Of a stretch of DNA of 64,000 nt, positions 283 through 61,297 are shown one piece after another. Under the pieces are notes generated by a model, which worked only from the letters and a program-made list of their open reading frames with translations, ran no database searches and had not been told where the DNA came from. The stretch covers positions 382,729 to 446,728 of the forward strand of contig NC_013887.1 of assembly GCF_000025525.1 (NCBI RefSeq). The letters run 5' to 3'. This stretch comes from Methanocaldococcus sp. FS406-22. GTDB taxonomy: Archaea; AGJL01; Methanococci; Methanococcales; Methanocaldococcaceae. Made by a program: the position numbers and the translations under genes. The stretch's first letter is position 1; every line of letters begins with the position of its first letter.

Positions 283-428
283 ATCACCTCTCTTTTTTCA
301 CTATTTTATTAAATAATGATAAATGCAATTTATAATAAATACATTGAGTAAAATTATAAATGCTATTTTTGTTATTCTCTTATAGGGAATTTTTATTTTT
401 ATGAAATTCCAATATTATTGGTGATGCT

Positions 429-600
429 ATGGGAATTGAAGAGGAAATCAGAAAGACCATAGGGCTATCGCCCTATTGGTATACCCAGAGTGGGGCTTCA
501 CTACATTCAGCCCCACTTTATTTAAATAATGTGGGGATACCCAATAGGGACTTTGCCCTTATGGGGTGGAAATATGGGAATTGAAGAGGAAATTAGAAGG
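429..600 (+). mobile_element. Hairpin element A with 27-bp direct repeats of the GTPase gene start
   Basis: Bases 429-455 and 574-600 are direct copies, with 2 mismatches, of the first nine codons of the downstream GTPase gene. The first copy follows the natural ribosome site (GGTGATGCT). Between them lie about 118 bp of palindromic sequence. It opens with the hairpin CATAGGG-CTATCG-CCCTAT, carries an inner GTGGGGCT/AGCCCCAC stem, and closes with an imperfect inverted copy of the opening (GGGATACCCAATAGGG). GGGGTGG near the end of the insert is now the only ribosome-site-like sequence before the intact gene. Two similar elements are at 18044 and 20557. The simplest reading is insertion with a long target duplication that rebuilt the gene start. 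Confidence 0.7.
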
Positions 601-1677
601 ATAGAGGAGGAATTAAAAAGGACACCATATAACAAAGCTACACAGAAACACATTGGTAGGTTAAAAGCTAAGTTAGCTAAATTGAGGGAGCAGGCTCAAA
701 GTAGAGGGGGAGGTGGAGGAGGAAAAGGTTATGCTGTAAAGAAAAGTGGAGATGCCACTGCAGCTTTTGTTGGATTTCCATCTGTTGGAAAATCCACTCT
801 GCTAAATAAATTAACAAATGCTAAATCAGAAGTTGGAGCCTATGCATTCACCACCTTAACAATTGTTCCAGGAGTTATGGAACATAAAGGGGCTAAGATT
901 CAGCTTTTAGATGCACCAGGTATTATTGTTGGTGCATCCTCAGGAAAAGGTAGAGGGACTGAGGTTTTATCTGCAGTAAGAAGTGCTGATTTGATTTTAT
1001 TAACTGTAGATATTTACACCCTAGAACACCTTCCAGTTATTGAAAAAGAGCTCTACAATGTTGGGATTAGATTAGACCAAAGGCCACCAGATGTTAAAAT
1101 TAAAGTTAAAGATAGAGGAGGGATTAATGTTAGCTCAACCGTTCCATTAACCCATATAGATGAAGATACAATTGAAGCAATATTGAATGAATATAGAATA
1201 CACAACGCAGATGTTGTTATAAGGGAGGATATAACCTTAGAACAATTTATTGATGTTGTGGCAGGGAATAGAGTTTACATTCCATCTTTAGTGGTTGTAA
1301 ATAAGATAGATTTAGCTGATGAAGAATATCTAAAATATATAAAACAAAAATTAGAGGAATTTGGTAAAGAGTATGTTTTAGTTTCTGGGAATAAAGGAAT
1401 TAACTTGGATTTATTGAAAGATAAAATCTATGAAAAACTAGGATTTATAAAGATTTATTTAAAACCACAAGGGAAAAAGCCAGATTTTGATGAACCACTA
1501 ATTATGAGAAGAGGAGCTACTGTAAAAGATGTTTGTGAAAAACTACATAAAGATTTCGTTAGAAATTTCAGATATGCTCAAGTTTGGGGAAAATCTGCAA
1601 AACATCCTGGGCAGAGAGTTGGATTAGACCATAAATTAGAGGATGAAGACATTTTAACAATTGTTATAAAGAGATAA
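574..1677 (+). CDS. DRG-family (Obg-like) GTP-binding protein with TGS domain
   Basis: A cytoplasmic GTPase of 367 residues, the archaeal counterpart of eukaryotic DRG1/DRG2, thought to act in translation. Visible in order: a charged N-terminal helix and a Gly-rich linker (about 45-52), G1 GFPSVGKST (67-75), G3 DAPG, G4 NKID, and a C-terminal TGS domain beginning near IMRRGATVKDVC. Length is normal for the family. The frame extends upstream to ATG 529, but those 15 codons are encoded by the inserted hairpin element, while ATG 574 matches the duplicated ancestral start at 429. Starting at 574 is therefore preferred. Confidence 0.95.
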   Translation: MGIEEEIRRIEEELKRTPYNKATQKHIGRLKAKLAKLREQAQSRGGGGGGKGYAVKKSGDATAAFVGFPSVGKSTLLNKLTNAKSEVGAYAFTTLTIVPGVMEHKGAKIQLLDAPGIIVGASSGKGRGTEVLSAVRSADLILLTVDIYTLEHLPVIEKELYNVGIRLDQRPPDVKIKVKDRGGINVSSTVPLTHIDEDTIEAILNEYRIHNADVVIREDITLEQFIDVVAGNRVYIPSLVVVNKIDLADEEYLKYIKQKLEEFGKEYVLVSGNKGINLDLLKDKIYEKLGFIKIYLKPQGKKPDFDEPLIMRRGATVKDVCEKLHKDFVRNFRYAQVWGKSAKHPGQRVGLDHKLEDEDILTIVIKR

Positions 1678-1702
1678 ATAAAAAAGATAAAGAGATGAAA
1701 GT

Positions 1703-2587
1703 ATGGAGATTGAAGGATATGAAAAAATTATAGAAGCTGGAAAAATTGCATCTAAGGTTAGAGAGGAAGCAAAAAAGCTAATAAAGCCTGGAGTTAAGCT
1801 ATTAGAAGTTGCTGAATTTGTTGAAAATAGAATTAGAGAGTTAGGAGGAGAGCCAGCTTTTCCATGCAACATATCAATTAATGAGATAGCTGCCCACTAC
1901 ACACCAAAATTAAATGATAACTTAGAGTTTAAAGAGGGAGATGTTGTTAAATTGGATTTGGGAGCTCATGTAGATGGCTATATTGCAGATACTGCCATCA
2001 CAATAGATTTATCAAACTCCTATAAAGATTTGGTAAAGGCATCTGAAGATGCATTATACACAGTTATTAAAGAGATAAATCCACCAATGAATATTGGAGA
2101 GATGGGAAAGATTATTCAAGAGGTTATTGAGAGTTATGGCTACAAGCCAATATCTAACCTCTCTGGACATGTAATGCATAGATATGAGTTGCATACTGGT
2201 ATTAGCATTCCAAATGTTTATGAAAGGACTAATCAGTATATAGATGTTGGAGATTTGGTAGCTATAGAGCCATTTGCAACAAACGGTTTTGGAATGGTTA
2301 AAGATGGGAAAATAGGAAACATATATAAGTTCTTAGCCAAAAGACCAATTAGGTTACCACAGGCAAAAAGAATTTTAGATGTTATAGCAAAAAATTATCC
2401 TTATCTACCATTTGCTGAGAGATGGGTTTTAAAAAGTGAGAGTGAGAGATTGGCTTTAAACTCATTAATTAGGGCTTCATGCATTTATGGCTATCCAGTA
2501 TTAAAAGAGAGAGAAAACGGCATAGTTAGCCAATCGGAGCATACAATATTGATAACCGAAAATGGCATTGAGATAACAACAAAATAA
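1703..2587 (+). CDS. map: Methionine aminopeptidase, type II
   Basis: Removes the initiator methionine from nascent proteins in the cytoplasm, using two metal ions. The 294-residue protein has the type II pita-bread fold. The metal ligands can be seen: Asp in [10 protein letters not shown], Asp in IADTAITID, His in [11 protein letters not shown], Glu in AIEPFATNG and Glu in [12 protein letters not shown]. The catalytic-pocket His is in [11 protein letters not shown] long insertion before the last two ligands fits type II. The gene follows the GTPase by 25 bp and precedes trpE by 16 bp, so the three may be co-transcribed. Confidence 0.95.
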
Positions 2588-2603
2588 TCTTTTTGGGGAT
2601 AGA

Positions 2604-4037
2604 ATGATAATTAAAAAGATAAAAATGGATGTTTGTCCATTAGATGTTTATGAGCAAATTAGGGGAGAAAATACATTTTTGTTGGAATCAGCAGAGGGAG
2701 TTCCAAAGGTTGCAAGATACTCAATCTTAGGAAGAGCAGAGGGAAAATTAGCGTTTAAAGAAGGAAAGTTAAAAGTTGAAAGCTTTACAGAATTTGGAGA
2801 TAAGGTTAAGGATTTAGAAGGGAAATATGAATGTCCCTTAGATGCTTTAAGAGAAGTTAGAAATGAATATCTTAAATATATTGATATATCCAACATTGAA
2901 CCAATACCAAGATTTAAGGGAGGTTTGGTTGGATATTTAAGCTATGATATTATCAGATACTGGATAGACTTATCAAACATCAATCCAAAGCCAATAAATG
3001 ATTTAAAATTCCCTGATGCAGAGTTCTTTATTGTTAAGGACTTTATTTCATTTGATTTGAAGGAAAAGGTTATTAATTTAATAGCAGAGGATGAAGAAGG
3101 TATTAGAGAACTTGAAAAAATTGTAGAAAAAGGAAAGACTAAGGATAGCAAAGAGAAAGAAGAAAAACCTATAAAACATAAAGAAGAATTAAAAATCAAA
3201 TCTAACATGAGTAAGGAAGAGTTCATTGAGGCAGTAAAAAAGGCTAAGGAATACATCTTTGCTGGAGATATATTCCAAGTGGTTTTATCAAGAAGAATAG
3301 AGATTGATTTGGATAACTTAGACCATTTAGAGATTTATAAAAAGGTTAGGGAAATAAATCCTTCTCCATACATGTATTACTTAGATTTTGGTGATAGAAA
3401 GATTATTGGCTCATCACCAGAGATTTTAGTTAGAACTGACTATAAAGATGGGAAGAGATTGGTTATAACAAGACCTATAGCTGGAACAATAAGGAGAGGT
3501 AAGACAGAGGAAGAAGACAAAGAGTTAGAGAAAAAGCTGTTAAGTGACGAGAAAGAGAGAGCTGAACATGTTATGCTTGTAGATTTAGCAAGGAATGACA
3601 TTGGAAAGATATCAAAATTTGGAACTGTAGAAGTTACAGATTTTATGATTATTGAGAAATACTCCCATGTTCAGCATATAGTAAGTAATGTTGTTGGGGA
3701 GTTAAAAGATAACTATGATTCATTCTTAGCTGTAAAAGCTACATTCCCAGCTGGAACTTTGAGTGGAGCCCCAAAAGTTAGAGCGATGGAGATTATTGAA
3801 GAGCTTGAAAAGACATGGAGAGGGCCTTATGGTGGGGGAGTTGGTTACTTTGGATGGGACGATTTAATGGATTTAGCAATAACAATTAGAACCTTTGTAA
3901 TCTCAAAAGATAAGGGCTATATCCAAGTTGGTGCTGGAATAGTTGCTGATTCAATTCCAGAAAATGAGTGGGAAGAAACAGAAAGGAAAGGAATGGCTAA
4001 TGTTAAGACGATTGAGAGTTTAGTTAAATTTAAATAA
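2604..4037 (+). CDS. trpE: Anthranilate synthase component I
   Basis: Converts chorismate and ammonia (from the TrpG glutaminase) to anthranilate, the first step of tryptophan synthesis. The 477-residue protein has the N-terminal regulatory domain with LLESAEG, part of the tryptophan feedback site. A highly charged linker follows (about residues 170-195). The chorismate-binding domain carries [27 protein letters not shown] and [14 protein letters not shown]. The anthranilate-type retro-regulatory features separate it from PabB, though this split is not absolute by eye. Neither trpG nor other trp genes are adjacent, so the pathway is scattered. GGGGAT precedes the ATG. Confidence 0.92.
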
Positions 4038-4073
4038 TAAAAAATTAAATTTTTTATAAAGTTTGGTGATTTT

Positions 4074-4502
4074 ATGGCAGCAGTGGTATATAGTAAATTG
4101 TATGAACTTATTAAAAATGTTAAGGATGAAAAAGAAGCTGAAGAAATTTGTAAGATTATTGAAGAATATTTTGCGAAAAAGTGTAAGGAAGAGGTTTCTA
4201 AAAATTTTGAGGAGCAGAAGCCAGTTTTTAAAGCTGAATTGAAGGATGAGTTAAAGGATGAGTTGGCTACTAAGAAGGATATTGCCCTTTTAGAGGAGAG
4301 AATGAATTCTATGGAGGAGAGGATTTTAAGGTATGTTGATGATAAGTTCCATTATTTGGATAAGAAAATAGATGAGAGCTTTTATAAATTGGATAAAAAA
4401 ATGACTATTGGGTTTATAATTTTGATATTGCTTTATATTTTGACAAATCCTAATGCAATAGAATTAATAAGGGGTCTGTCCAATGTGAGCGTTGGTGAGT
4501 AA
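4074..4502 (+). CDS. Coiled-coil protein with C-terminal membrane anchor (DUF1640-like paralogue 1)
   Basis: Not assigned a function. It has 142 residues. The N-terminal signature YSKLYELIKNVKDEKEA is shared with the genes at 6039 and 18719. A charged coiled coil follows (ELKDELKDELATKKDI, EERMNSMEERILRYVDDK), then one C-terminal membrane helix (FIILILLYILTN). The architecture recalls the DUF1640 coiled-coil/membrane proteins. The last residues (GLSNVSVGE) differ from paralogue 6039 and lie in the GTCCAATGTG arm of an IS605-type remnant, so the natural C-terminus was probably replaced. GGTGATTTT precedes the ATG. Confidence 0.75.
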   Translation: MAAVVYSKLYELIKNVKDEKEAEEICKIIEEYFAKKCKEEVSKNFEEQKPVFKAELKDELKDELATKKDIALLEERMNSMEERILRYVDDKFHYLDKKIDESFYKLDKKMTIGFIILILLYILTNPNAIELIRGLSNVSVGE

Positions 4503-4676
4503 ATGCCCCACATTGGACTTGGGCGTCATCAGCCTCTTAATAGAAACCTCTGCCCCTGTCGTGGGGACCCCAACTCCACCCACCAATTTGACAGTTAGTT
4601 GGCTGCTTTAATATTTTTAAAAGAGGTTTAGGAAAATTTAGAGTTAATTGGAGTGGCATTATAAACTATGCATAAA
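4478..4676 (+). pseudogene. Scrambled remnant of an IS605-type tnpB 3' end
   Basis: Pieces of a tnpB gene close to that at 27769 lie here out of order. Minus strand 4509-4588 encodes a C-terminus like TTGAEVS...LMTPKSN. On the plus strand 4592-4636 encodes QLVGCFNIFKRGLGK, directly followed in frame by RVNWSGIIN (4640-4666), which in the intact protein lies upstream of QLVGCFN. One arm is therefore inverted and another transposed. The stem GTCCAATGTG (4478-4487) / CACATTGGAC (4509-4518) corresponds to the long-range 3' stem seen at the intact elements. No complete transposon frame remains. Confidence 0.8.
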
Positions 4677-4774
4677 AATAATATATAAACATTTCGAAAA
4701 CTCAATACTCCCATACACTCACAAATACTCACAAAAAACTAAACAGTTTAAAACAGCTATTATTTGGGATTAAA

Positions 4775-4883
4775 TAGTGTCTTTCAAAACCAATAAAATT
4801 TATTAAGGAAGTTTTGAATGCCTTTCCAAGAAAGGCGTTCATTAATATATATAGTTAATCTAAGAATTTTTTGAAAGACACTA
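4775..4883. mobile_element. MITE family 1 copy (TAGTGTCTTTCAAAA termini)
   Basis: A 109-bp palindromic element. Its ends are TAGTGTCTTTC and GAAAGACACTA in inverted orientation, and its centre is the hairpin GCCTTTCCAAGAAAGGC. Related copies lie at 19033, 45801, 52338 and 59789, and a decayed one near 48963. The ends begin with TA, suggesting a TA target. It has no coding capacity and presumably moves with a transposase supplied elsewhere. The rest of the 4677-4910 gap is AT-rich with nothing recognised. Confidence 0.8.
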
Positions 4884-4910
4884 TAAGCATACATAAAAAA
4901 GGAGGGGATA

Positions 4911-5840
4911 ATCATAATTAAAAAACTAATTGAGGCATTAAGACAGGCACAAGATGAAGATTTTAAAATATTAAAAATTATAGAATTGTCAATGAGATAT
5001 CATGAGTGGGTGCCATTAGATGAGATTGTTAGAAAGGCAAAGATGCCTGAAAAGGATGTGTTATATAGATTAAAGAGACTGAACAAATTTGGGTTTGTTG
5101 TAAGAAGCACTTATGGTTATGCTGTCTCAATGGGAGGCTATGATGCTTTAGCTGTAAATGCATTTGTTAAAAAAGGAATATTAAAAGCTATAGGCAATAA
5201 ATTAGGTGTTGGTAAGGAAGGAGATGTTTATACTGTCTTGCTAAGTGATGGAAGAGAGGCAGTTTTAAAATTCCATAAGCATGGAAGAACATGCTTTACA
5301 AGAGGGAAGAGGTATAGAGGGTATTTAGCTGATAAACATCATATAAGCTGGCTCTATGTTTCAAGATTAACGGCTGAGAGAGAATTTGAGATTTTAAATG
5401 AGTTATTCCCAACAGTTAAAGTTCCTGAACCAATAGAGTGGAATAGACATGCCATAATTATGGGTAAAGTTGTTGGAGAAGAGTTGAAGAGATTAGATTT
5501 ATCAGAATTTATGAGTAAAGAGGAAATTAAAGACTTATTCTGGAAAATTATTGAAGAGGTTAAAAAAGCTTATGAAATTGGATATATACATGGAGATTTG
5601 AGTGAATTTAACATTTTATTGGATGAGAATGGGGATTTTGTTATTATTGACTGGCCTCAGGCGGTTCCTAAATACCATCCAGACGCTGAATTCTACTTAA
5701 AGAGAGATATTTGGAATGTAATAAGATACTTCAAAAAGTATAAGATTGATAAGGAAGATGAAAGGATTGATGTTGATAAAATTTTCGCTTATATAACTGG
5801 AAAAGGACTTTCGCAGGATAAATACTCTATTGTATATTGA
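4911..5840 (+). CDS. rio2: RIO2-type serine/threonine protein kinase
   Basis: An atypical kinase/ATPase of small-subunit ribosome maturation. The N-terminal winged helix (YHEWVPLDEIVRKAKM, GFVVRSTYGYAVS) is followed by the RIO kinase domain: ATP loop GVGKEGDVYTV, lysine in AVLKFHKHG, catalytic loop HGDLSEFN and metal-binding IIDWPQ. The only ATG/TTG starts (4992, 4986) would cut off a helix (KKLIEALRQAQDEDFKILKI) that stays open and in frame back to a strong GGAGGGG box at 4901-4907. That box is followed by ATC (4911) and ATA (4914), not ATG. The C-terminal GLSQDKYSIVY is encoded by an inserted MITE. The kinase call is firm; the start is uncertain. Confidence 0.85.
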   Translation: MIIKKLIEALRQAQDEDFKILKIIELSMRYHEWVPLDEIVRKAKMPEKDVLYRLKRLNKFGFVVRSTYGYAVSMGGYDALAVNAFVKKGILKAIGNKLGVGKEGDVYTVLLSDGREAVLKFHKHGRTCFTRGKRYRGYLADKHHISWLYVSRLTAEREFEILNELFPTVKVPEPIEWNRHAIIMGKVVGEELKRLDLSEFMSKEEIKDLFWKIIEEVKKAYEIGYIHGDLSEFNILLDENGDFVIIDWPQAVPKYHPDAEFYLKRDIWNVIRYFKKYKIDKEDERIDVDKIFAYITGKGLSQDKYSIVY

Positions 5841-5903
5841 CATCCTTTGGATGTCTAAATTCCAAAAATAAATCTAATATATAAAAATTGCGAAAGTCCT
5901 TTT
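5801..5903. mobile_element. MITE family 2 copy (AAAAGGACTTTCGCA termini)
   Basis: A 103-bp element with perfect 15-bp inverted ends, AAAAGGACTTTCGCA (5801-5815) and TGCGAAAGTCCTTTT (5889-5903), and a small central hairpin GACATCC/GGATGTC. The left end is read through by the RIO2 gene and supplies its last 11 codons and stop. A second copy at 47119 does the same to the Sua5/YrdC gene. The gap from 5904 to 6038 shows nothing else recognised beyond a ribosome site for the next gene. Confidence 0.8.
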
Positions 5904-6038
5904 GAAAAGAGCCAATTCATAAATTTAAAGAGACAGGGCTTGCAGAAGGGCAAGATTAGTCAATAAAGAGACTATAAAAAATTAAAAAATTTAAATAACA
6001 AAAACACAAAAACATATGAATTTTATGAGGGTGATTTT

Positions 6039-6464
6039 ATGGCTATCGCCTATGCTAAGTTATATGAGTTGATATATAAAAATATTAAGGATGAAAAGAA
6101 GGCAGAAGAGTTATACAAAATTGTTGAAGAATTTATAAAAGAAAATGAACAAAGAATTGAAGATAAATTTAAGAACGAAAAAGTTATTATTAAAAATGAA
6201 TTAAAAGATGAGTTAAAAAATGAGTTAGCTACAAAAGAAGATATCTTATTAACTAAAACAGAACTTAAAAATGAAATTGACTTAGTTAGAGAAGAAATGA
6301 AAGCAATGGAGGAGAGGATTTTAAGGTATGTTGATAATAAAATCTATGAAGTTAGAAACGATATTACTCAAATAAAAATATTGGTAATAATTACCTTACT
6401 TGCTGTAGTTATTTTAAATCCTTATGCTTATGAAATTGTAAAAACTTTAATTGGATTAAAATAA
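6039..6464 (+). CDS. Coiled-coil protein with C-terminal membrane anchor (DUF1640-like paralogue 2)
   Basis: Unknown function; 141 residues. The N-terminus (MAIAYAKLYELI, then a KDEKKAEEL helix) matches the paralogues at 4074 and 18719. The middle is a charged coiled coil with ELKNELATKEDI and the shared MEERILRYVD. The C-terminus is one hydrophobic helix (ILVIITLLAVVILNPYAYEI) that should anchor it in the membrane. This copy appears intact, unlike 4074. GAGGGTGATTTT precedes the start. It begins a run of five same-strand genes up to 8984 that may form an operon. Confidence 0.8.
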   Translation: MAIAYAKLYELIYKNIKDEKKAEELYKIVEEFIKENEQRIEDKFKNEKVIIKNELKDELKNELATKEDILLTKTELKNEIDLVREEMKAMEERILRYVDNKIYEVRNDITQIKILVIITLLAVVILNPYAYEIVKTLIGLK

Positions 6465-6480
6465 GTTTTGAGTGGAATCT

Positions 6481-7422
6481 ATGGCTTTTGATAAAATTTG
6501 TGATGAAATTATATTGGATTATGAGGATGCAAAAGATTTCGCCTATATTTTAAAATTAAGTTATTTGAATGAGTTTGAGAAAATTAAAAATTTAAATTTA
6601 GATAAATTTGGCATTGTTGAGAAGGATGATTTATTATTCTATGGGAAGAACTATCCTCTATTTAAAAGCTTACTATTTTTTAATGAAATTCCTGTATTTA
6701 GGGAAGAAAAAGAGAGTATTTTATTTTTAAAGAATATTGAGTTATCTCCGAGAAATACTTTAAACTCATTAACTTACGATGAAAAAATAAGATTGGGGAA
6801 TGAATTTCTAAAAAGATGTATAAATATTGTTCCTAAGGAATATATCAGCGATATTCCTCAGCTAATTTTTGGAAAGGAATATTATTTTAAAGGAGTTTGT
6901 TTAAAAGAATATGTCTCTGCCTTAAATGGACTTTATAAGATTGGTAAGAAGAATAAGGTTAAAAAATTAATAATCAATAGGGAATTGCCTGATGAGAAGG
7001 ATGTTAAAAAGTATAAGAAAAAACTGGCAAAGAAAATAAGCTTATTTAAGAAAAAATTAGATAATTATGAAATAAATTACTTTAACTTAAAGTTTAATAA
7101 CAAAAACTTTAAATGTCAATATATCTATGTTAGACAATCAATATGGGATAAGATTTTAAGTTTGTTTGGGGAAGAAATTGAACTAAAATATTATCCAACT
7201 TTGGTTAATGTTGCCTATTCCCATGAAAAAGTTGATTTCTTAAGGCCATTATTTATATTTGTGAATAAGGGAGACATTTCTGTTTATGCAAAAGTTCCCA
7301 AGCTTATTTATTTAAAAGATGGATTAACATTGAACCATTTGAATCTAAGAGGAAAGTGTATATATTTTGGTAATTGGGAAAAAGAGAGATTTTTGGAAAT
7401 TATTGAAAAGGGAGTCTTATGA
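6481..7422 (+). CDS. Uncharacterised protein
   Basis: I do not recognise this 313-residue protein. It is rich in Lys, Leu, Phe and Tyr, with no signal peptide or clear membrane helix. The middle has a basic stretch (DVKKYKKKLAKKISLFKKKL), and the C-terminal half looks alpha/beta with KLIYLKDGLTLNHLNLRG. A GTG start at 6472 would add three residues; ATG 6481 after GAGTGG is preferred. It starts 17 bp after paralogue 2 and overlaps the next gene by 4 bp (ATGA), so the secreted-protein gene downstream is probably translationally coupled to it. Confidence 0.65.
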   Translation: MAFDKICDEIILDYEDAKDFAYILKLSYLNEFEKIKNLNLDKFGIVEKDDLLFYGKNYPLFKSLLFFNEIPVFREEKESILFLKNIELSPRNTLNSLTYDEKIRLGNEFLKRCINIVPKEYISDIPQLIFGKEYYFKGVCLKEYVSALNGLYKIGKKNKVKKLIINRELPDEKDVKKYKKKLAKKISLFKKKLDNYEINYFNLKFNNKNFKCQYIYVRQSIWDKILSLFGEEIELKYYPTLVNVAYSHEKVDFLRPLFIFVNKGDISVYAKVPKLIYLKDGLTLNHLNLRGKCIYFGNWEKERFLEIIEKGVL

Positions 7423-7910
7423 GAAAATATTTGATAATATTAGCTCTTATTTTATTTTTAAATAGTAGTTTTGGTTATTATTTGGGATATATTGAGGTAA
7501 CCGAGAGCAATCCTGCTAAAACAATAACATTTAATATGAATAAAGTCGAAAATTATACTTACAAACTTAGTTTTGTTCATTATGGAAATATAAAAGAGAA
7601 TATGCAGGTAAATATTTATTTAAATGAAAATTTGGTTTATACAATTGATGATTCCGATGATACATCTCCCGCATATAAGAAAAATATCTCTATAGATATA
7701 ACAGATTATTTAAAAAATGGAGAAAATGTTTTAAAAGTTGAAGGTGTGAATTTAATTGGGAATGAAAGTTATAATCCATATTATGTTCTAAAAGATGTTT
7801 ATATAAACGAGCCAACTAAGACACCAATAAGCTTTGAGTTGATGATTTATACTTTATTGATTATTAGTTATCTGATTTATATATTTAATGAGAATATTAA
7901 AAGAGAATAA
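7419..7910 (+). CDS. Secreted or membrane-anchored beta-rich protein
   Basis: Function unknown; 163 residues. A signal peptide is clear (RKYLIILALILFLNSSFG), followed by an extracellular domain of beta strands (NYTYKLSFVHYGNI, MQVNIYLNENLVYTI, GENVLKVEGVNLIG) resembling a small jelly-roll or galactose-binding sandwich. A C-terminal membrane helix follows (ELMIYTLLIISYLIYIF) with a short basic tail. It should face the outside of the cell. The start overlaps the stop of the upstream unknown gene by ATGA, which suggests the two proteins work together. Confidence 0.7.
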   Translation: MRKYLIILALILFLNSSFGYYLGYIEVTESNPAKTITFNMNKVENYTYKLSFVHYGNIKENMQVNIYLNENLVYTIDDSDDTSPAYKKNISIDITDYLKNGENVLKVEGVNLIGNESYNPYYVLKDVYINEPTKTPISFELMIYTLLIISYLIYIFNENIKRE

Positions 7911-7949
7911 CAATGATTGTTATGAAAAATAAATTTTTGGTGATTTATA

Positions 7950-8984: not shown

Positions 8985-9071
8985 AATATTTTTAGCATTA
9001 TAATAAAAATTTTTTGTAATGAATGTGTGCTGATAGACCGTGCTGAAGAATAAAGGTTATGATATAGATGA

Positions 9072-9170
9072 TTATTCCTACCAATAATTAATTCTCCAAG
9101 GTGCGGAGTTTGTAGTTATTGTAGTTCTGAAAAATATGGAGATATTAAGATAAAAAGTTTCAAGATGTGA
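9072..9170 (+). pseudogene. Possible cysteine-rich gene remnant
   Basis: The 190-bp gap between the ATPase and the glycosyltransferase holds a short open frame without a start, reading INSPRCGVCSYCSSEKYGD. The CxxCxxC pattern and codon use look like protein-coding sequence, perhaps the tail of an iron-sulfur or zinc protein, but I cannot assign a family. A stop lies just upstream at 9069. It may be what is left of a glycan-modifying gene, or chance. Confidence 0.3.
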
Positions 9171-9174
9171 AACT

Positions 9175-10293: not shown

Positions 10294-10304
10294 TGGGTGA
10301 TAGC

Positions 10305-11156: not shown

Positions 11157-11161
11157 TAAAT

Positions 11162-12352: not shown

Positions 12353-12353
12353 A

Positions 12354-13889: not shown

Positions 13890-13895
13890 ATTTTT

Positions 13896-14966
13896 TTATA
13901 ACAATCTCTTTATAGCGTTCCAGACTAAAAAACTCTGTGGTTTTAAAATCCTTTTTTGTGAATTTAAAAATAAAATATTCTCCTTAATTAAAAATATCCT
14001 AATTTTCCTTTTTATCTTATTCTTTGGAACTTCATAGTTATCTTTAAACAATTTTAATACCTCTAAGACTTCATCATAATTCACGCTTTCATAATCCTCC
14101 TCAACCTTCTCTAATAATTCTTCTAAGTGATTTAACTCCTCCCCAAGTTTTGTTTCCAAAACCTCTTTCAAATCTTTACCAAGTTTTAACTTAACAATAA
14201 CATCATAAATATCCTTTGCCTTTCCACCAACATAGTTATAAATTAGCTCTTTATCATCATTAGACAAATGTCTATTTAGTAAATCTCCTGATAGAAAATC
14301 AATAAACTTTAAAGCTGTATCTTTATCAAAATCATCAACTAAGATATAGTCAACTCTCCCTTTTAATTCAGCTTTCCCATAGATATACTCAATAAATAAG
14401 CTATCTGAGCTTAAACAAAAAACATGACATAAATGTTGTTCTTTAGTTAAAGAAACTAAGAATTGAAATAGTTCTTTTAATAAATACTTCTGCCCGTTAA
14501 GAACGACATCTTTAATCATTTGAAACTCATCAAAGATTAAAATTGGTTGTTTCCCACTCTTTTTAACTTCTAATAATAAGGTGTTTAAATACTGAAAAAC
14601 ATCGTTTATCTTCTCTTCAAATAACTTATCAAATTCAATCTCAGGAATTGGAATACCAGTTAAAATCTTAGCTCCTTTGGTTATTAAATTCAAAACCTCT
14701 GATTTGTCCTTAATCTTCTCAAAGAAGTCATCTTTTTTAGTAGTGAAGATAGCTTCAATGAATTCTTTTTTTTCTGAGATTAAATAAGTTCTAAAATTGA
14801 TATAAAAAACCTTGTAATCGTCACTTATCCTATTTTCTATAATGTATTTTATTAAGGTTGTTTTTCCACTGTTTAAAGGACCATAAATAAAATAAATATT
14901 ATTTGGCTCCCCTTCTAAGATTGATAGAATTTCTTTTATTTCTTTCTCCCTGTTAAAAAATTTCAT
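13896..14966 (-). CDS. Archaeal AAA+ ATPase (ATPase_2 family), paralogue of 7950
   Basis: A 356-residue ATPase with the same plan as the protein at 7950: [16 protein letters not shown] at the N-terminus, Walker [10 protein letters not shown], Walker [12 protein letters not shown], and [12 protein letters not shown] as sensor 1. Its stop lies 6 bp upstream of the flippase start, so the two are likely co-transcribed. That places this ATPase in the glycan island, but what it acts on is unknown. GGTGGATATTT precedes the ATG. Confidence 0.85.
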
Positions 14967-14987
14967 AAATATCCACCATCATGTTTT

Positions 14988-15150
14988 TTATAAAATCTCA
15001 ACACCTTCATTTAAAATCGTTGAGTAAAAACTACTATACCTTAATTTATTAAATTCATTTTCACTTTTAATTATAACATTAATTAGAATTCCGTATTCAA
15101 CCATAATATCAACAATCAAAGTCTATAATATCATCTAATATAATGTCCGT
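14988..15150 (-). pseudogene. C-terminal fragment of a MNT-type nucleotidyltransferase
   Basis: Minus-strand 15104-14988 reads 38 codons (VEYGILINVIIKSENEF, SSFYSTILNEGVEIL) that match the C-terminal end of minimal nucleotidyltransferases of the MNT/HEPN type. The frame is blocked just upstream, but ILDDIIDFDC in another frame between about 15113 and 15145 looks like the preceding segment, implying a frameshift. The N-terminal half is missing where the tnpB element begins. The paired HEPN gene is not visible. It probably lost function when the insertion sequence arrived. Confidence 0.5.
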
Positions 15151-15153
15151 TCC

Positions 15154-15222
15154 GACTCTCCACTACTTATGAAACATTTAGAACATTTGTATAATTTGTT
15201 GTATAATTTGTAGTGGAGAGTC
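15154..15222 (-). ncRNA. Long-range stem at tnpB 3' end (omega-RNA-like)
   Basis: GACTCTCCACTAC (15154-15166) and GTAGTGGAGAGTC (15210-15222) are perfect 13-bp inverted repeats that straddle the tnpB stop codon at 15178. TnpB guide RNAs (omega RNA) are known to come from the 3' end of the tnpB gene and the right transposon end. The same arrangement, with different sequence but kept pairing, is seen at 27735, 4478 and 57363. The adjacent coding region to about 15300 is unusually GC-rich for this genome. Confidence 0.55.
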
Positions 15223-16404
15223 TTCCCCTAATAAGGGGCTTTCGGGGGGAACGGGACTCCCCACATCCTTCGGTTTGTTAAATAATAGTTTAAACCCCCT
15301 AAGCATTATATTCAAACTACCAACAACATCTCTATCTAAAATACAACCACAATCCTCGCACTTTAAAACCCGATGCCCATTCGGGCTCATCTTACCCCCA
15401 CATATCGGGCATCGGGAGGAAGTATAATGTGGATTCACAAAAATAACTTTAATCCCATTAAGTTTAGCCTTATACTTAATAACCTCTTGTAATCTCCTAA
15501 AACTCCACCTATGCAATCTACCATTCAACTTTTTAGAGTATTTAATCTTGTTTCTAATCTCTTTTAAATCCTCTAAGGCAATAACCCCATTAACACTCTT
15601 AGCAATTTCGATTATCTTATTAACAACCTTGTGATAAATGTCAGTAATCTTATTCCTTTCCCTATTACCATACTTTTCCAATAATTCTTTCTTCTTATCC
15701 TCATTTTCAACCTTCTTTTGGATTTTTCTTCTCTTAACATAATAAGAAGTCCTAACAGTCCTCTCATTAGTTATAATTTGTATTATACCGTTAGTTGTAG
15801 CGATAGTAACATTATTCTCATTCAAATCAACTCCTACAACACTCTCCCCTTCTTTAATCAAAACATTCTTTGAGAATACTACGTTTAGATAATAAGCATC
15901 TTTTCTTCTAACAATCCATGCTTGTCCAACCTTCCAGTCTTTAAACTTTTTATGATACTCTGAAACAAAAAGTTCTACTTCTACCCTCCCCTTCGGTGTT
16001 GAAATTCTTGCCAAACCATTATCTAAATCTAATCTAAACAAATGGTCGTCTAACATTATCACACTGCCCTTAAAATCTGGTTTTTTACTTGCCCTACCTT
16101 TTCTATGCCTCTTTCTCCAACTTTTAAATATTGAAGTGGTTATTTGACATGCAGTATAGAGGTAATGGGATGGGAGTTTTTGATATTTTTCTCTTAATTC
16201 TTTATACTTTTCAGATTTTAACCGTTTAAAACTTGTAATATTGTTTTCAAAGGCATAATTTAAGAGTTCATTAACTATTGTCTTATACGTGGAGAATAAA
16301 CCAACTATTTCATTGGGAGTTTGTTTTATTTTAAATCTTGCAGTTAGTTTAATTGTTTCTAAGTATTCGTTTGACATTTTCAACAACCTTTCCATTGTTA
16401 TCAC
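15178..16404 (-). CDS. tnpB: IS605-type TnpB, RNA-guided nuclease family
   Basis: A 408-residue TnpB with an apparently complete RuvC active site: Asp in VVGVDLNENN, Glu in VIALEDLKEI, and the last Asp in LDRDVVGSLNI (about residue 359). The zinc finger is CPICGG and CEDCGC. No tnpA transposase is next to it, so this is an IS1341-type, tnpB-only element that would depend on TnpA elsewhere. The start may be internal (for example the Met before SNEYLETIKL). It sits next to a broken nucleotidyltransferase gene and divides the glycan island. Confidence 0.92.
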   Translation of the reverse strand: MITMERLLKMSNEYLETIKLTARFKIKQTPNEIVGLFSTYKTIVNELLNYAFENNITSFKRLKSEKYKELREKYQKLPSHYLYTACQITTSIFKSWRKRHRKGRASKKPDFKGSVIMLDDHLFRLDLDNGLARISTPKGRVEVELFVSEYHKKFKDWKVGQAWIVRRKDAYYLNVVFSKNVLIKEGESVVGVDLNENNVTIATTNGIIQIITNERTVRTSYYVKRRKIQKKVENEDKKKELLEKYGNRERNKITDIYHKVVNKIIEIAKSVNGVIALEDLKEIRNKIKYSKKLNGRLHRWSFRRLQEVIKYKAKLNGIKVIFVNPHYTSSRCPICGGKMSPNGHRVLKCEDCGCILDRDVVGSLNIMLRGFKLLFNKPKDVGSPVPPESPLLGEDSPLQIIQQIIQMF

Positions 16405-16518
16405 AAATAATTACAATGTTCCAAAAGCATATAAACGTTTTGAACGTTTCATTTAAGGAAACAGCCCAAATTTCTTTTTTAAATTTTTCAAAAATAACTT
16501 AATGCCCTGTCATGCATA

Positions 16519-17025
16519 TTAACCACTCTTTCTTATAATCTCAACACAATCATATAAACTTTTAGCAATAAAATCTGCTTCTGTTTCTTCATCCTCATAA
16601 AGAATCCTTATTGTCTTACAACCAACACTCTTTCCACAAATTATATCCCTTTCACTATCTCCAATCATCCAACTTTTTTTAAAGTCAATATTCCACTTTT
16701 CCTTTGCTTTTAAAAGCATACCGTTTCTTGGTTTTCTACAATTACAAGTCCCCTCCAAATGTGGGCAGTAAAAAATATCATCAATCTCAGGCAACAATTT
16801 AAGCATATAGTCATGAACAACTTTTAAATCTTCTTCTGTCATAACTCCTTTGGCAATTCCTTGCTGATTAGTTACAACTATCAACAAATAACCCATCTTT
16901 TTAAATTCGATTAACGCCTCCCTAACTTTAGGCAGTAGTTCAAACTCCTCTATTTTTTTAACATAGTTCCCAATTAGTCGTTTATTGATAACCCCATCCC
17001 TATCTAAAAAAATTGCCTTGTTCAT
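16519..17025 (-). CDS. gmhB: D-glycero-beta-D-manno-heptose 1,7-bisphosphate 7-phosphatase
   Basis: A HAD phosphatase of 168 residues that removes the 7-phosphate from heptose bisphosphate. Motif I is FLDRDGVINK, motif II is VVTNQQGIAKG, and motif IV is MIGDSERDI. The GmhB zinc loop CPHLEGTCNCRKP is present, which separates it from histidinol phosphatases. An ATG at 17037 is possible; GGATGATATT before ATG 17025 is a better ribosome site. It lies downstream of hldA on the same strand. Confidence 0.88.
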   Translation of the reverse strand: MNKAIFLDRDGVINKRLIGNYVKKIEEFELLPKVREALIEFKKMGYLLIVVTNQQGIAKGVMTEEDLKVVHDYMLKLLPEIDDIFYCPHLEGTCNCRKPRNGMLLKAKEKWNIDFKKSWMIGDSERDIICGKSVGCKTIRILYEDEETEADFIAKSLYDCVEIIRKSG

Positions 17026-17143
17026 AATATCATCCATATTTTAAATCTTAAAATGTTTTAAATAAAATTATTTTACTATCAACCCAATACTTTTTAACAC
17101 TTCTGATATGAACAGGGAGATTATGATTATTGTTATATTGATA

Positions 17144-18058
17144 TTATTTCTCACTAAACAACTCTTCCAAACTAACTGTTGCAGTTCCAACCTTTCCAAC
17201 AACGATTGAACTTGCTTTATTTGCCAATTTAACTGCCTCAATTAAATCATAGCCCTTATCTAATGCATAACCCAAAACTGCAATAAACGTATCTCCTGCC
17301 CCTGAAACGTCATGAACTTCTTTAACCTTTGTTGGAATATGGAAGATTTCCCCATCGAGAGTTATTAAAGTAGCTCCTTTTTCACTCCTTGTTATAACAA
17401 AATTTGAATTATATTTATCAACTAACTCCAATCCAGCTTTTTCTAACTCCTCATCTTTATTCTCAATCTCTCTTCCTAAAATTTGGGAAGCCTCTTTTAA
17501 ATTTGGTTTTATTAGATAAACATCTCTATAAAACTCTATGTTTTTTGGTTTTGGGTCAACTAAAATTTTTCCTTTAAATTCTTTTTTTATGCCTTCCATA
17601 AGTTCCTTTGTAATTAATCCCTTTGCATAATCAGAAATTATTAATATATTTGACTTCCCATTGAGATTCTTAATAACTTCTAAGATTTTACTACTTAGTT
17701 CATCATTTATTGGATAAATTTTTTCATAATCAACCCTAAGCAATTGCTGATTATAACCCATAGCGACAAATCTATGCTTCACTATCGTTGGTCTCCCATC
17801 AGAAACAAAACAATATTTAATATTATTCTCATTGCATAACTCTTCAATACATTTTCCAAATTCATCGTTATTAGAAATACTTATCAAAAATACATCATGG
17901 TTTAAAGAAGCTATATTGTTTGCGACATTTCCCGCTCCCCCTAAGGTGTATCTCTCCTCAACCACATTTAATATTGGAACAGGTGCTTCTGGATTTATCC
18001 TTTCAACCTTTCCATAAGTATATTTGTCAAGCATAACCTCTCCTAAAACAATTATCAT
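17144..18058 (-). CDS. hldA: D-glycero-beta-D-manno-heptose 7-phosphate kinase
   Basis: A PfkB/ribokinase-family sugar kinase of 304 residues. It has the N-terminal sugar site GGAGNVANNIASL and the C-terminal anion hole DVSGAGDTFIAVLGYAL typical of the HldE kinase domain. It stands alone here instead of being fused to the nucleotidyltransferase, which is the separate gene at 18214. Its product is the substrate of GmhB. The first five codons and ribosome site (GAGGGAGAAT) are duplicated at 18190-18216 on the far side of an inserted hairpin element. Confidence 0.88.
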   Translation of the reverse strand: MIIVLGEVMLDKYTYGKVERINPEAPVPILNVVEERYTLGGAGNVANNIASLNHDVFLISISNNDEFGKCIEELCNENNIKYCFVSDGRPTIVKHRFVAMGYNQQLLRVDYEKIYPINDELSSKILEVIKNLNGKSNILIISDYAKGLITKELMEGIKKEFKGKILVDPKPKNIEFYRDVYLIKPNLKEASQILGREIENKDEELEKAGLELVDKYNSNFVITRSEKGATLITLDGEIFHIPTKVKEVHDVSGAGDTFIAVLGYALDKGYDLIEAVKLANKASSIVVGKVGTATVSLEELFSEK

Positions 18059-18216
18059 ATTCTCCCTCTACTAATATTTATTTAAATTTTTAATAATCTA
18101 ATGACCATACCAATTTGTTAATTTACACCTCCGAGCGTAGCGAGGAGGTGTTAGAGAGTATAGCAATAGAGGGCATCCCTCTATGCTTATAAAACAATTA
18201 TCATCTTCTCCCTCTA
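18044..18216 (-). mobile_element. Hairpin element B with 27-bp direct repeats of the hldA start
   Basis: Bases 18044-18070 and 18190-18216 are direct repeats with a single mismatch. Each holds the hldA ribosome site, ATG and four further codons. The upstream copy sits directly behind hldC, where the gene presumably began before insertion. The 119-bp insert, read on the minus strand, opens with the hairpin CATAGAGGG-AT-GCCCTCTATT. It also contains ACCTCC-GAGCGTAGC-GAGGAGGT and GGTCATTA, the latter shared with element C. hldA remains intact because the repeat rebuilt its 5' end. Confidence 0.72.
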
Positions 18217-18687
18217 TTTATATTTCTCTAAAACCCATTCTATTATTTTTGTTGTTGAAAATCCTTCAATTAATGGGATTATTTTTATTTCCCCACCATA
18301 ACTTTTAACAATCTCTGCTTCTGGTAAATCCTCTTCTTTATAATCTCCACCTTTTACATGAATATCTGGTTTGATTATTTTTATAAGTTCTATGGGAGTT
18401 TCTTCATCAAAAGGAACTACAAAATCTACAGCCTTTAAGTTATCTAAAACATAAGCTCTCGAGTATAGAGGAATTATCGGTCTTTTATTTCCTTTTATCT
18501 TTTTTATGGATTTATCTGAATTTATTCCAACTATTAAAATATCCCCCAACTTTTTTGCCTTGTTTAAATACTCTACATGTCCCCTATGGATTATATCAAA
18601 ACATCCGTTAGTAAAAACAATTTTTAGATTTTGGTTTTTTAACTCTCTTACGATGTCTTCTAATAATCTTCTATCCTCAATTATCAT
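18214..18687 (-). CDS. hldC: D-glycero-beta-D-manno-heptose 1-phosphate nucleotidyltransferase
   Basis: A cytidylyltransferase-fold enzyme of 157 residues that activates heptose 1-phosphate, in bacteria with ATP to give ADP-heptose. The signature is TNGCFDIIHRGHVEYLN, then LIVGINSDKSIKKIKG and RPIIP. It matches the C-terminal domain of HldE (RfaE domain II). The nucleotide used in archaea is not proven by sequence. AAGGGAGAAC precedes the ATG. hldA originally followed directly, now separated by element B. Confidence 0.85.
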   Translation of the reverse strand: MIIEDRRLLEDIVRELKNQNLKIVFTNGCFDIIHRGHVEYLNKAKKLGDILIVGINSDKSIKKIKGNKRPIIPLYSRAYVLDNLKAVDFVVPFDEETPIELIKIIKPDIHVKGGDYKEEDLPEAEIVKSYGGEIKIIPLIEGFSTTKIIEWVLEKYK

Positions 18688-18718
18688 GTTCTCCCTTATT
18701 TATTAGAAATTTTGTTTT

Positions 18719-19021
18719 TTATTTAAATAACAATAATTTTCCAATGATTTCGGGAGCATAGATAGATAAAATTATAATTAATGCAATTATTATCATATCT
18801 CGTCTAAGCAGTTTAATTTCCTTCTCAATCTTTTCATCTAAATATTTAATATCTTCCTTTGTAGCTAATTCACTTCTTAATTCATCTTTCAACTCATTCT
18901 TGATAATAATTTTATTTTCTTTATTAAGTTCAATAATAATATCATAAATTTCTCTTGCTTCCTTCTCATCTTTAACCTTTTTAAGTATCAACTCATACAA
19001 CTTAGCATAGGAAATTGCCAT
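18719..19021 (-). CDS. Coiled-coil protein with C-terminal membrane anchor (DUF1640-like paralogue 3)
   Basis: Unknown function; 100 residues, shorter than its paralogues at 4074 and 6039. It shares the start MAISYAKLYELI, the KDEKEAREI helix and the ELRSELATKEDI coiled coil, and ends in a hydrophobic helix (MIIIALIIILSIYAPEIIGKLL). The alternative ATG at 19042 adds seven residues absent from paralogues, so ATG 19021 is used. It sits between gmhA and hldC, next to a truncated MITE, so its place in the heptose operon may be accidental. Confidence 0.72.
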   Translation of the reverse strand: MAISYAKLYELILKKVKDEKEAREIYDIIIELNKENKIIIKNELKDELRSELATKEDIKYLDEKIEKEIKLLRRDMIIIALIIILSIYAPEIIGKLLLFK

Positions 19022-19032
19022 AATCTCCACCA

Positions 19033-19097
19033 TAACTAACAATAAGGCATTTATGAACGCCTTCCTTACTAAATTTTATTAATTTCAAAAGACACTA
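19033..19097. mobile_element. Truncated MITE family 1 copy
   Basis: The right half of a family 1 element: ATGAACGCCTTCC, then AAATTTTATTAATTTCAAAAGACACTA. It matches the reverse complement of the left half of the 4775 copy but lacks the other arm and most of the central hairpin. The terminal CTA is the complement of the TAG stop codon of gmhA, so the element supplies the end of that gene. Confidence 0.65.
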
Positions 19098-19649
19098 AAA
19101 CAATCTCTTCTCAACCTCTTCACATATTACATGATATATAGTTAGATGACATTCTTGGATTCTTGCTGTGTTATTGGAAGGAACTATCAATGCCAAATCA
19201 ACAATATCCTTCAATTTTCCCCCATCCTTTCCTAACAATCCAATTGTATAAATGCCCATTTCTTTTGCTTTATTAACTGCCTTTATAACATTCTCTGAAT
19301 TTCCACTTGTAGATATTCCAACTAAAACATCCCCTTCTTTTCCTAAAGCTTCAACTTGCCTTTCAAAAATCTTATCAAAACCATAATCATTTCCTATAGC
19401 TGTTAAAATTGACGTATCCGTTGTTAATGCAATTGCAGGCAGTCCTTTCCTTTCTAATTTAAACCTACCCACAATTTCAGCAGCAAAATGTTGAGAATCA
19501 GCAGCTGAACCACCATTTCCACAAATTAAAATTTTATTCCCATTTTTTAATGCATTGTATATAATATCAATGGCTTTTTTTAACTTTCCCTCATTTTCTT
19601 CAATAAATTTTAACTTTACATTTGCACTTTCTTCAAAATACTTTTTCAT
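19095..19649 (-). CDS. gmhA: Sedoheptulose 7-phosphate isomerase
   Basis: A SIS-domain isomerase of 184 residues that makes D-glycero-D-manno-heptose 7-phosphate, the first step of nucleotide-heptose synthesis. The family motifs are [35 protein letters not shown] and [15 protein letters not shown], with the Glu and His expected of GmhA. Length is normal. The stop codon lies in a MITE end. It is the first gene of the minus-strand heptose set and is divergent from galU, with a shared promoter region at 19650-19737. Confidence 0.92.
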
Positions 19650-19737
19650 AATACCACCAAATTTTTATACCTCTGAAATAATAATTATAGATTGTTAATA
19701 ATTTAAATTTAACTGAAAAATTTACTAAAGGGAGAAG

Positions 19738-20592
19738 ATGATAAAGAAGGCAGTAATTCCAGTAGCTGGTTTTGGGACTCGACTGTTGCCAATAACGAAA
19801 GCACAACCAAAAGAAATGCTCCCAGTTGTGAATAAGCCAATAGTTCAGTATGTTGTTGAGGATTTAGTAGAAGCAGGAGTAAAAGATATTTTATTTGTAA
19901 CTGGGAAGGGTAAGCAGGCGATAGAAAACCACTTTGACGTAAACTATGAGTTAGAATGCAAATTAGAAAAATCTGGAAAATATGAACTTTTGAAAATCAT
20001 TAAAGAGATAGACAACTTAGGAAATATATTTTATGTAAGGCAGAAAGAGCAGAAAGGTTTAGGAGATGCTATTTTATACGGGGAGGAGTTTGTTGGGGAA
20101 GAATACTTTATAGCAATGGTTGGAGATACAATTTACTCTAAAAATATTGTAAAGGACTTAATAAAAGCCCATGAAAAGTATGGTTGTTCAGTTATCGCCT
20201 TAGAGAGGGTTCCAAAAGAAGACGTTTATAAGTATGGAGTAATTGATGGAGAAAAGATAGAGGAGGGGATTTATAGAATAAAAAACATGGTAGAGAAGCC
20301 AAAAGTAGAAGAAGCTCCTTCAAATTTAATTATAACAGGAGCTTATTTATTGTCACCAAAAATATTTGAAAAGATTAGAGAAACTCCACCAGGAAGAGGA
20401 GGGGAAATCCAAATTACAGATGCCATGAATTTATTGTTAAAGGAGGAAGAGATTATAGGAGTTGAGATTAACTGTAAGAGATATGATATTGGAGATGTTC
20501 TTGGATGGTTAAAGGCAAATGTAGAGATTGGAGCTGAAAAATTCCCTGAATTTAGAGAGTTTTTAAAGGAGTTTGTTAAAAATCTACTTTGA
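19738..20592 (+). CDS. galU: UTP-glucose-1-phosphate uridylyltransferase
   Basis: Forms UDP-glucose from UTP and glucose 1-phosphate, a donor for surface glycans. The 284-residue protein carries AGFGTRLLPITKAQPKEMLP at the nucleotide site, then VEKPKVEEAPSNLIITGAYL and GGEIQITDAMNLL, diagnostic for bacterial-type GalU. AAGGGAGAAG precedes the ATG. The last codons (KEFVKNL) are duplicated at 20762-20791, after an inserted hairpin element. Confidence 0.92.
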   Translation: MIKKAVIPVAGFGTRLLPITKAQPKEMLPVVNKPIVQYVVEDLVEAGVKDILFVTGKGKQAIENHFDVNYELECKLEKSGKYELLKIIKEIDNLGNIFYVRQKEQKGLGDAILYGEEFVGEEYFIAMVGDTIYSKNIVKDLIKAHEKYGCSVIALERVPKEDVYKYGVIDGEKIEEGIYRIKNMVEKPKVEEAPSNLIITGAYLLSPKIFEKIRETPPGRGGEIQITDAMNLLLKEEEIIGVEINCKRYDIGDVLGWLKANVEIGAEKFPEFREFLKEFVKNLL

Positions 20593-20791
20593 AAATTTTT
20601 AAGAGGCATTGCTTCCGCAAGGAAGCAATGCATCGGGGTATCACAGTAAGAATTCGAAGTATAGTGGTATAATGACCTAATGGAGCTTAATATACTATAA
20701 TTTTTGATGAAACTTTTTCTAAAAGTTTCATAGGAATAGGGGACTTCCCCTATGCTTAGGGGAGTTTTTAAAGGAGTTTGTTAAAAACCTA
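20557..20791 (+). mobile_element. Hairpin element C with 30-bp direct repeats of the galU end
   Basis: Bases 20557-20586 and 20762-20791 are direct repeats with one mismatch, carrying the last codons of galU. The 175-bp insert holds three clear hairpins: GCATTGCTTCC-GCAA-GGAAGCAATGC, ATGAAACT...AGTTTCAT, and ATAGGGGA-CT-TCCCCTAT followed by GCTTA. Read on the minus strand, the last of these is the same leading end (CATAG-stem-CTATT) as in elements A and B. The insert ends the current galU frame with a TGA. From 20792 to 20872 only AT-rich sequence is seen. Confidence 0.7.
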
Positions 20792-61232: not shown

Positions 61233-61297
61233 TGAATGTAATTTTGTATTAAATAAAACTCTTCTAAAACTCTAAAAAATAAATAAAATAAATATCA

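Follow-up and report, generated by a model that had tools for sequence, protein, structure and literature searches.

The 64,000-nucleotide stretch of the Methanocaldococcus sp. FS406-22 genome analysed here (the window) holds three places at which direct repeats of a gene end flank a short palindromic insert. The question raised by this arrangement is whether the inserts are copies of a mobile element that duplicates its target, and by what process the gene ends came to be rebuilt beside them. Small palindromic repeats are widespread and their mode of movement is mostly obscure; the insertions described here leave a clear, testable mark, namely long variable duplications and one exact hairpin boundary.

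Three inserts and their empty sites

Site A lies at the start of a DRG GTPase gene (574-1677), where repeat copies at 428-456 and 573-601 (29 bp, 2 mismatches) enclose an insert at 457-572; counting the GGTG ribosome-binding site, the repeat is 37 bp long (420-456 and 565-601), with a diverged spacer. The first copy (420-456, plus strand) is a displaced, non-functional and decayed gene start together with the native GGTGATGCT ribosome-binding region; its upstream flank matches the empty site of the sister genome G012, and it ends at the hairpin. There follow the left hairpin CCATAGGGCTATCGCCCTATTGG (457-479, plus strand), an internal palindromic module of the M4 type, GGGGCTTCACTACATTCAGCCCC (492-514, plus strand), with 1 mismatch to the module of sister inserts, and the right hairpin, an inverted copy (540-564, minus strand), which stops exactly at the second duplication copy. 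From the latter (565-601, plus strand), the functional copy, the DRG gene takes its GGTG ribosome-binding site, ATG and first codons.

Sites B and C are both oriented on the minus strand. At site B, the copies at 18044-18070 and 18190-18216 (27 bp, 1 mismatch) flank an insert at 18071-18189 (RNA fold z -4.6) that contains a CATAG hairpin (18163-18186) and a palindromic module (18125-18151). The functional copy, 18044-18070, provides the ribosome-binding site, ATG and first codons of a PfkB-family kinase gene (17144-18058), and the displaced copy, 18190-18216, adjoins the hairpin, is identical to the G012 empty site and still contains the end of a cytidylyltransferase gene lying upstream (18214-18687). 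Weaker similarity extends this repeat to 43 bp (18044-18086 and 18190-18232), as expected for an eroded longer duplication. At site C, the repeated segment is the 3' end of a nucleotidyltransferase gene (19738-20592): the functional copy at 20557-20586 and the displaced native copy at 20762-20791, beyond which native downstream DNA continues, are 30 bp long with 1 mismatch. The insert between them (20587-20761) carries a CATAG hairpin (20733-20755), an M5-type palindrome (20706-20731) and an M3-type palindrome (20605-20631).

At all three loci, sister genomes possess an empty site in which the repeated segment is present only once. The inserts are real insertions with long direct duplications, as a sequence-only reading of the window had proposed. 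That reading had also located the three sites correctly and had recognised that, in a common orientation, all three inserts start with a CATAG..CTATT hairpin. The further motif GGTCATTA, which it had described as common to B and C, is indeed present in both but is absent from all other inserts tested, and its sharing may be due to chance. No further CATAG insertion was found in the parts of the window that could be aligned with sister stretches.

A hairpin family and its flanking duplications

The CATAG hairpin, with its bulged T and compensated outer base pair, occurs in 13 copies in the FS406-22 genome and in 17 strict matches in the sister genome G007, which we take to be M. jannaschii. It is found in most Methanocaldococcus genomes, and the family is genus-wide; genomes G000, G004-G009, G012 and G013 are rich in the hairpin, and G001, G002 and G010 have none. 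The hairpin is conserved: its outer pair covaries between C-G (51) and G-C (12), and a stem pair is either G-C (34) or A-T (28). Elements of about 60-300 bp consist of one or two CCATAG hairpins and one to several other hairpin modules; the inserts of site A and of several sister sites are bounded by inverted hairpins on either side, and many other copies have only one hairpin. No Rfam family matches the inserts. Some of the palindromic repeats of M. jannaschii named MJRE reportedly lie inside coding regions and leave the frame unbroken. Like the hairpins here, MJRE are dispersed palindromic repeats of M. jannaschii that are at times in frame within genes (17 hairpins, locus L140), and the two are probably the same, an equation that is made by description rather than by sequence. 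MJRE were reported in 2005 (Suyama, Lathe and Bork, FEBS Lett 579:5281; cited in PMC2229807), and to call the element undescribed was thus too strong. Long duplications at these palindromes were not reported in the literature searched, outside of which the 2005 paper itself falls.

The association of hairpins with direct repeats is far beyond chance. With a flanking direct repeat defined as one scoring at least 16 and ending at most 8 nt from the hairpin, repeats starting at the hairpin edge were found at 52 of the 115 hairpins tested (orthologous copies each counted separately), against 2-6 in controls in which the flanks were exchanged between sites, or 45% versus about 3%. The genome comparison covered the stretches around matches and a few syntenic blocks. 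The repeat boundary mostly lies 0-1 nt from CATAG, and the same junction point recurs at orthologous sites in separately sequenced genomes. Duplication lengths vary from 18 to about 73 bp, typically about 18-45 bp, so that the fixed length of 27-30 bp suggested by the three sites in the window does not hold. Inserts without flanking repeats, which the sequence-only reading had named as a sign of unrelated tandem duplications, do occur in part, since at about 55% of hairpins no repeat could be detected. At the 3' end of the M. jannaschii arsR gene, for instance, the insert is present without the second copy, and a sister species retains a perfect 18-bp copy there; in G012 the arsR 3' end bears a duplication that is perfect over 18 bp, and FS406-22 has an empty site there.

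The duplicated segment is usually the start or the end of a gene, and one copy often rebuilds it, as had been claimed. Among 3'-end sites, the repeat ends within 6 bp of the stop codon in 12 of 17, where about 4 would be expected for random duplication lengths (P about 5e-5), and in 23 of 24 single-hairpin cases the hairpin end is inside the gene and the opposite end adjoins the gene's terminus. Both the stop-codon precision and the 23:1 polarity may be due to erosion and selection. Duplications at tRNA 3' ends run on into the non-coding trailer (L020), and an ATPase-like gene of M. jannaschii (L140) has an internal in-frame insertion with a flush 25-bp duplication of which both copies read YILVDD. 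The latter case shows that duplication also happens where there is no gene end. The statement that the element spares its target is thus too strong, since duplications also lie inside a gene and beside tRNAs, and the pattern more probably reflects that insertions survived where they could be tolerated.

Proposed staggered insertion, erosion and allele exchange

Sites A, B and C are best explained, with a probability of about 0.55 for the explanation as a whole, as members of a family of non-autonomous palindromic repeats in Methanocaldococcus that underwent variable staggered insertion followed by erosion and allele exchange. Each element would have been inserted with a direct target duplication of variable length (about 18-45 bp as a rule, up to about 73 bp). 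Insertions would have been tolerated, and selected, where the duplication covered a gene start with its ribosome-binding site, or a stop codon, because the copy joined to the gene body then stays complete and the other copy is a displaced remnant. The copies would later have eroded; the displaced copy has decayed at an NrpR-like gene as well as at site A. Elements of this kind rewrite gene starts and ends, bringing new ribosome-binding sites, stop codons and C-terminal tails. At several loci, homologous recombination would have swapped insertion-bearing and insertion-free alleles between lineages, and a functional and a displaced copy could thereby come to differ like alleles of two strains.

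The evidence for such exchange comes from comparison of the copies with one another. Between the two RibL copies of M. jannaschii there are 7 synonymous and 0 non-synonymous codon differences, yet in G006, which has the same insertion point, the coding parts of both copies are identical. At TrmI, GCG is present in the functional copies of M. jannaschii, G012, G005 and G004, and GCA in the displaced copies. Divergence near the TrmI insert is weakly raised between G008 and G013 (8 per 100 versus about 3). The copies at these two loci seem to differ like alleles of different strains, suggesting that insertion-bearing alleles moved between lineages, and the elements may mark recombination between hyperthermophile lineages. 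Judged from these sequences, a foreign origin of copies appears clear at RibL and TrmI only. Over all copy pairs, 99 of 194 mismatches fall at the third codon position, which is about as expected for one neutral and one constrained copy and is therefore no proof of foreign origin by itself.

Several observations count against staggered insertion followed by exchange: no transposase or autonomous relative was found, the stop-codon precision and the polarity in 23 of 24 cases are unexpectedly strict, and no duplication could be detected at about 55% of hairpins. The main rival, although unlikely, is a purely recombinational origin. In one strain, a palindrome would have lain harmlessly next to a gene, and a DNA segment terminating at the hairpin would have entered another strain by homologous recombination through the gene body and illegitimate joining at the hairpin, leaving the recipient's own gene end displaced; the duplication would then be an orthologous gene end and not a target-site duplication. 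Such an origin would explain why similarity stops at gene ends, the 23:1 polarity, the exclusively synonymous differences at RibL and the nearly so at TrmI, the TrmI 3'-end junctions, which differ between species with the insert always directly behind the stop codon, and the non-native leader of the functional RibL start. However, it would hardly yield a flush 25-bp duplication within a gene, the perfect 18-bp arsR repeat, duplications running into tRNA trailers, or the NrpR pair, which is of its own lineage and in which both copies share derived states, and it leaves the exactness of the hairpin boundary unexplained.

A bolder version of the insertion reading can be put forward tentatively. 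An as yet unknown archaeal integration system that relies on no reverse transcriptase and no Y1 transposase may insert hairpin-ended palindromes with variable target duplications of 18-73 bp, such that insertions into gene ends rebuild the gene and the rebuilt, partly recoded ends are afterwards passed from species to species along with the insert.

Known systems and candidate enzymes

Long variable duplications are unusual, as these genomes have no known enzyme that would produce them. A MITE of a classical DDE transposon would have a short fixed target duplication, in contrast to the variable 18-73 bp here. Certain integrative elements reconstitute the 3' end of the gene that they target, one copy rebuilding the gene and the similarity ending at the gene end; these have an element-specific attachment core and a recombinase, whereas the hairpins here have dozens of unrelated targets and no recombinase was found. 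The sequence-only reading had proposed to look for a larger relative that carries a recombinase gene between such ends. None was found where inward-facing pairs of hairpins separated by at most a few kb were inspected (L135, L136), and these hold ordinary-looking ORFs. The Rickettsia palindromic elements (RPE) and other prokaryotic MITEs are likewise small non-autonomous palindromes, some forming in-frame gene fusions, but they belong to other organisms and have other sequences, and the relevant portion of the source makes no mention of duplications of 18-73 bp (PMC10969869). Insertion sequences of the IS1202 group make unusually long target duplications of 16-28 bp (PMC10132070); the range here is wider, with many above 30 bp. 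Moreover, these are full insertion sequences with a DDE transposase, and the rve domain (PF00665) is present in only 2 of 14 genomes (G009 and G001) and, among the hairpin-rich genomes, absent from G007, G008, G012 and G013 and present only in G009, provided that this model would catch an IS1202 transposase.

Insertion by a Cas1-family integrase, either a casposase or off-target CRISPR adaptation machinery that targets tRNA and gene 3' ends and duplicates segments up to repeat length, is improbable. Casposons, as far as the consulted portion of the source describes them, make duplications of 1-27 nt and target the 3' ends of tRNA and aEF-2 genes; they resemble the elements here in their variable duplications, in the palindromes within some terminal repeats and in leaving the target gene intact at 3' ends, and differ in being large and self-synthesising and in that gene starts are not among the targets described there (PMC4046053). 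CRISPR repeats of 30 bp are present in the window. Against such an integrase, the observed duplications reach 40-73 bp, insertions also lie at gene starts and inside a gene, and the junctions showed no leader-like target motif. Retroposition by target-primed reverse transcription would account for one precise hairpin end, a truncated or variable far end and variable duplications, all of which are observed, but it is strongly disfavoured, as reverse transcriptase (Pfam RVT_1) is absent from all 14 Methanocaldococcus genomes in a search in which control genomes gave the expected matches.

The ends of IS200/IS605 or REP/RAYT elements typically form an imperfect hairpin with an extrahelical T, and single-strand transposition recognising the bulged hairpin might also be considered, given a TnpB-only gene in the window (15178-16404). 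There is very little chance of this, since such systems make no target duplication and the duplications here are verified by empty sites; only 2 of 14 genomes, among them FS406-22 with one intact copy, gave a match to Y1 transposase, which is missing from the hairpin-rich sisters G007, G008, G012 and G013, and no CATAG hairpin lies in the surroundings of the TnpB gene. The elements are thus not IS200/IS605-like, a point on which the sequence-only reading was right. The search for the enzyme is narrowed by the occurrence of the insertion mark in genomes that lack reverse transcriptase and, for the most part, also the transposase that usually recognises hairpins. Finally, palindromes are prone to replication errors, but unrelated tandem duplications or assembly artefacts near them are scarcely credible here: tandem duplication is contradicted by the single-copy empty sites, and both readings by the exact hairpin boundary, the excess over controls and the shared junctions at orthologous sites in separately sequenced genomes.

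Three inserts and their target sites

The sequence-only reading had described three palindromic inserts, each opening with a CATAG hairpin and set between long direct repeats of a gene end, and these structures were borne out where it had placed them. At site A, 29-bp repeats (428-456 and 573-601) enclose an insert at 457-572 and rebuild the start of a DRG-type GTPase gene. At site B, 27-bp repeats (18044-18070 and 18190-18216) surround an insert at 18071-18189 and rebuild the start of a PfkB-family kinase gene. At site C, the 3' end of a nucleotidyltransferase gene is rebuilt by 30-bp repeats (20557-20586 and 20762-20791) around an insert at 20587-20761. In RNA folding, inserts A (z -4.9) and B (z -4.6) greatly outperformed shuffled sequences; the 149 nt that make up most of insert C gave a z of -2.0.

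Site A lacks the insert in G007, G012, G005 and other genomes (taken to be M. jannaschii, M. bathoardescens and M. fervens, respectively); in both G006 and a Methanocaldococcus MAG (L041) the identical position is occupied. Site B is empty in M. bathoardescens, M. fervens, G011 and others, and site C in M. jannaschii, M. bathoardescens and G006; M. fervens carries an insert with different modules at the same base as site C. This patchy sharing is compatible with ancient insertions that were precisely lost in places, or with transfer from lineage to lineage.

The hairpin family and its direct duplications

The strict hairpin pattern CATAGNGG..CCNCTATT has 13 exact matches in this genome and its reversed control none. 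It is present in 11 of the 14 Methanocaldococcus genomes searched (one of them, G008, presumably Methanocaldococcus sp. SG1), with 8-26 copies in nine of those, and is almost absent from the related genera searched. An unpaired T is a constant feature; the C-G pair beyond it becomes G-C in 12 of 75 distinct hairpins, and one stem pair alternates between G-C and A-T. Further palindromic modules follow the hairpin in varying combinations. Matched by description rather than sequence, these palindromes very probably correspond to the MJRE repeats reportedly described in M. jannaschii in a 2005 study; the literature searched yielded no account of long duplications in Methanocaldococcus. At two loci (L006, L007) the CATAG hairpin and further palindromic modules lie inside a larger repeat whose inverted ends are ATAGTGTTTTTCAAAA. 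At L143 (G012:C1:144889-147200), two identical hairpin pairs lie in direct orientation 867 bp apart, which suggests tandem duplication of the intervening stretch.

When the 110 nt before each of 115 hairpins were aligned to the 450 nt after it, counting repeats that scored at least 16 and ended within 8 nt of the hairpin, 52 hairpins had a flanking direct repeat, most commonly ending exactly one base before CATAG. With flanks exchanged among sites the count was 2-6; orthologous copies of different species were counted separately and are not independent, though the contrast is large nonetheless. Duplication lengths range from 18 to ~73 bp.

The majority overlap a gene end, and the gene-body copy remains complete. 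Duplication is not limited to such ends, because an M. jannaschii ATPase-like gene carries an internal in-frame insert with a flush 25-bp duplication (both copies encode YILVDD), a perfect 18-bp repeat spans the arsR stop codon in M. bathoardescens, and others lie at tRNA 3' ends (L011, L020, L139). These last three inserts, at different tRNA genes and in different genomes, join the T-loop copy at their far end through one and the same junction, AAAAGGTTC being followed by GTTT(G/A)AATC. Rebuilding of the gene end looks like a condition of survival rather than the mechanism.

Proposed insertion, erosion and allele exchange

Among the 14 genomes the reverse transcriptase domain RVT_1 was not found, Y1 transposase occurs only in this genome and G011 (broken), and rve only in G009 and G001, which for the whole family disfavours retroposition by known enzymes as well as transposition of the IS200/IS605 or rve type. 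The one intact Y1 transposase lies at L246 (G000:C1:1030333-1030686). An enzyme since lost from the genomes could still account for the family. IS1202-group elements are documented to make long target duplications (16-28 bp; PMC10132070) and casposons variable ones (1-27 nt; PMC4046053), but the Methanocaldococcus palindromes match neither group in length, size or gene content.

The best explanation is variable staggered insertion followed by erosion and allele exchange; the main rival is a purely recombinational origin of the duplications. Some enzyme would insert the palindrome with a variable stagger, duplication and insert would later erode, and alleles would be exchanged. At 12 of 17 hand-curated protein 3'-end sites the repeat stops no more than 6 bp from the end of the gene, where random lengths predict ~4 (P about 5e-5), and repeat length correlates with how far away that end lies (Spearman 0.64). 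Where an insert at a protein gene has a single hairpin, it faces the displaced copy, the remnant beyond the insert, in 23 of 24 hand-curated cases; at tRNA sites the side is reversed. Both regularities could arise if the duplication lost its useless part, and the insert its far end, through erosion, because the gene limits deletions on its own side. Similarity of lower identity that continues to 43 bp at site B points the same way.

In the putative RibL gene of M. jannaschii the copies differ at seven codons, all synonymous, and the insertion-free M. bathoardescens gene differs from the displaced copy at 3 positions and from the functional copy, joined to the gene body, at 6. G006 shares the insertion point and the new leader GGTGTGAATA, and its coding parts are identical between copies. 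The 3' end of the putative TrmI gene is a hot spot, with inserts directly after the stop codon in seven genomes (L221, L222, L225, L226, L227, L228, L233) and four junction points on the other side. Four genomes have one insertion point in common and others have different points; in those four, functional copies read GCG where displaced copies have GCA, and GCA also stands in the alleles of this genome, G013 and G011, which are empty. Such patterns are hard to explain if a dead copy simply decayed; the RibL and TrmI sequences point to lineages having exchanged alleles that bear the insertion. The copies at A, C and the putative NrpR gene resemble simple duplicates that have decayed somewhat.

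Other features of the window

Another palindrome, GGACTTTCGCA..TGCGAAAGTCC (5802-5902), has entered the 3' end of a RIO kinase gene (4986-5840) and replaces the protein's C-terminus; relative to M. bathoardescens its duplication measures only ~6-7 bp, and it is probably an ordinary MITE. Three related-looking small proteins (4074-4502, 6039-6464 and 18719-19042) have a Y(A/S)KLYELI stretch in common; the second, the one scanned, had no Pfam match. A TnpB-like gene (Cas12f1-like_TNB) at 15178-16404 is without an adjoining TnpA in the stretch read. At 61130-61233 a single spacer separates two CRISPR-type repeats (Rfam CRISPR-DR13).
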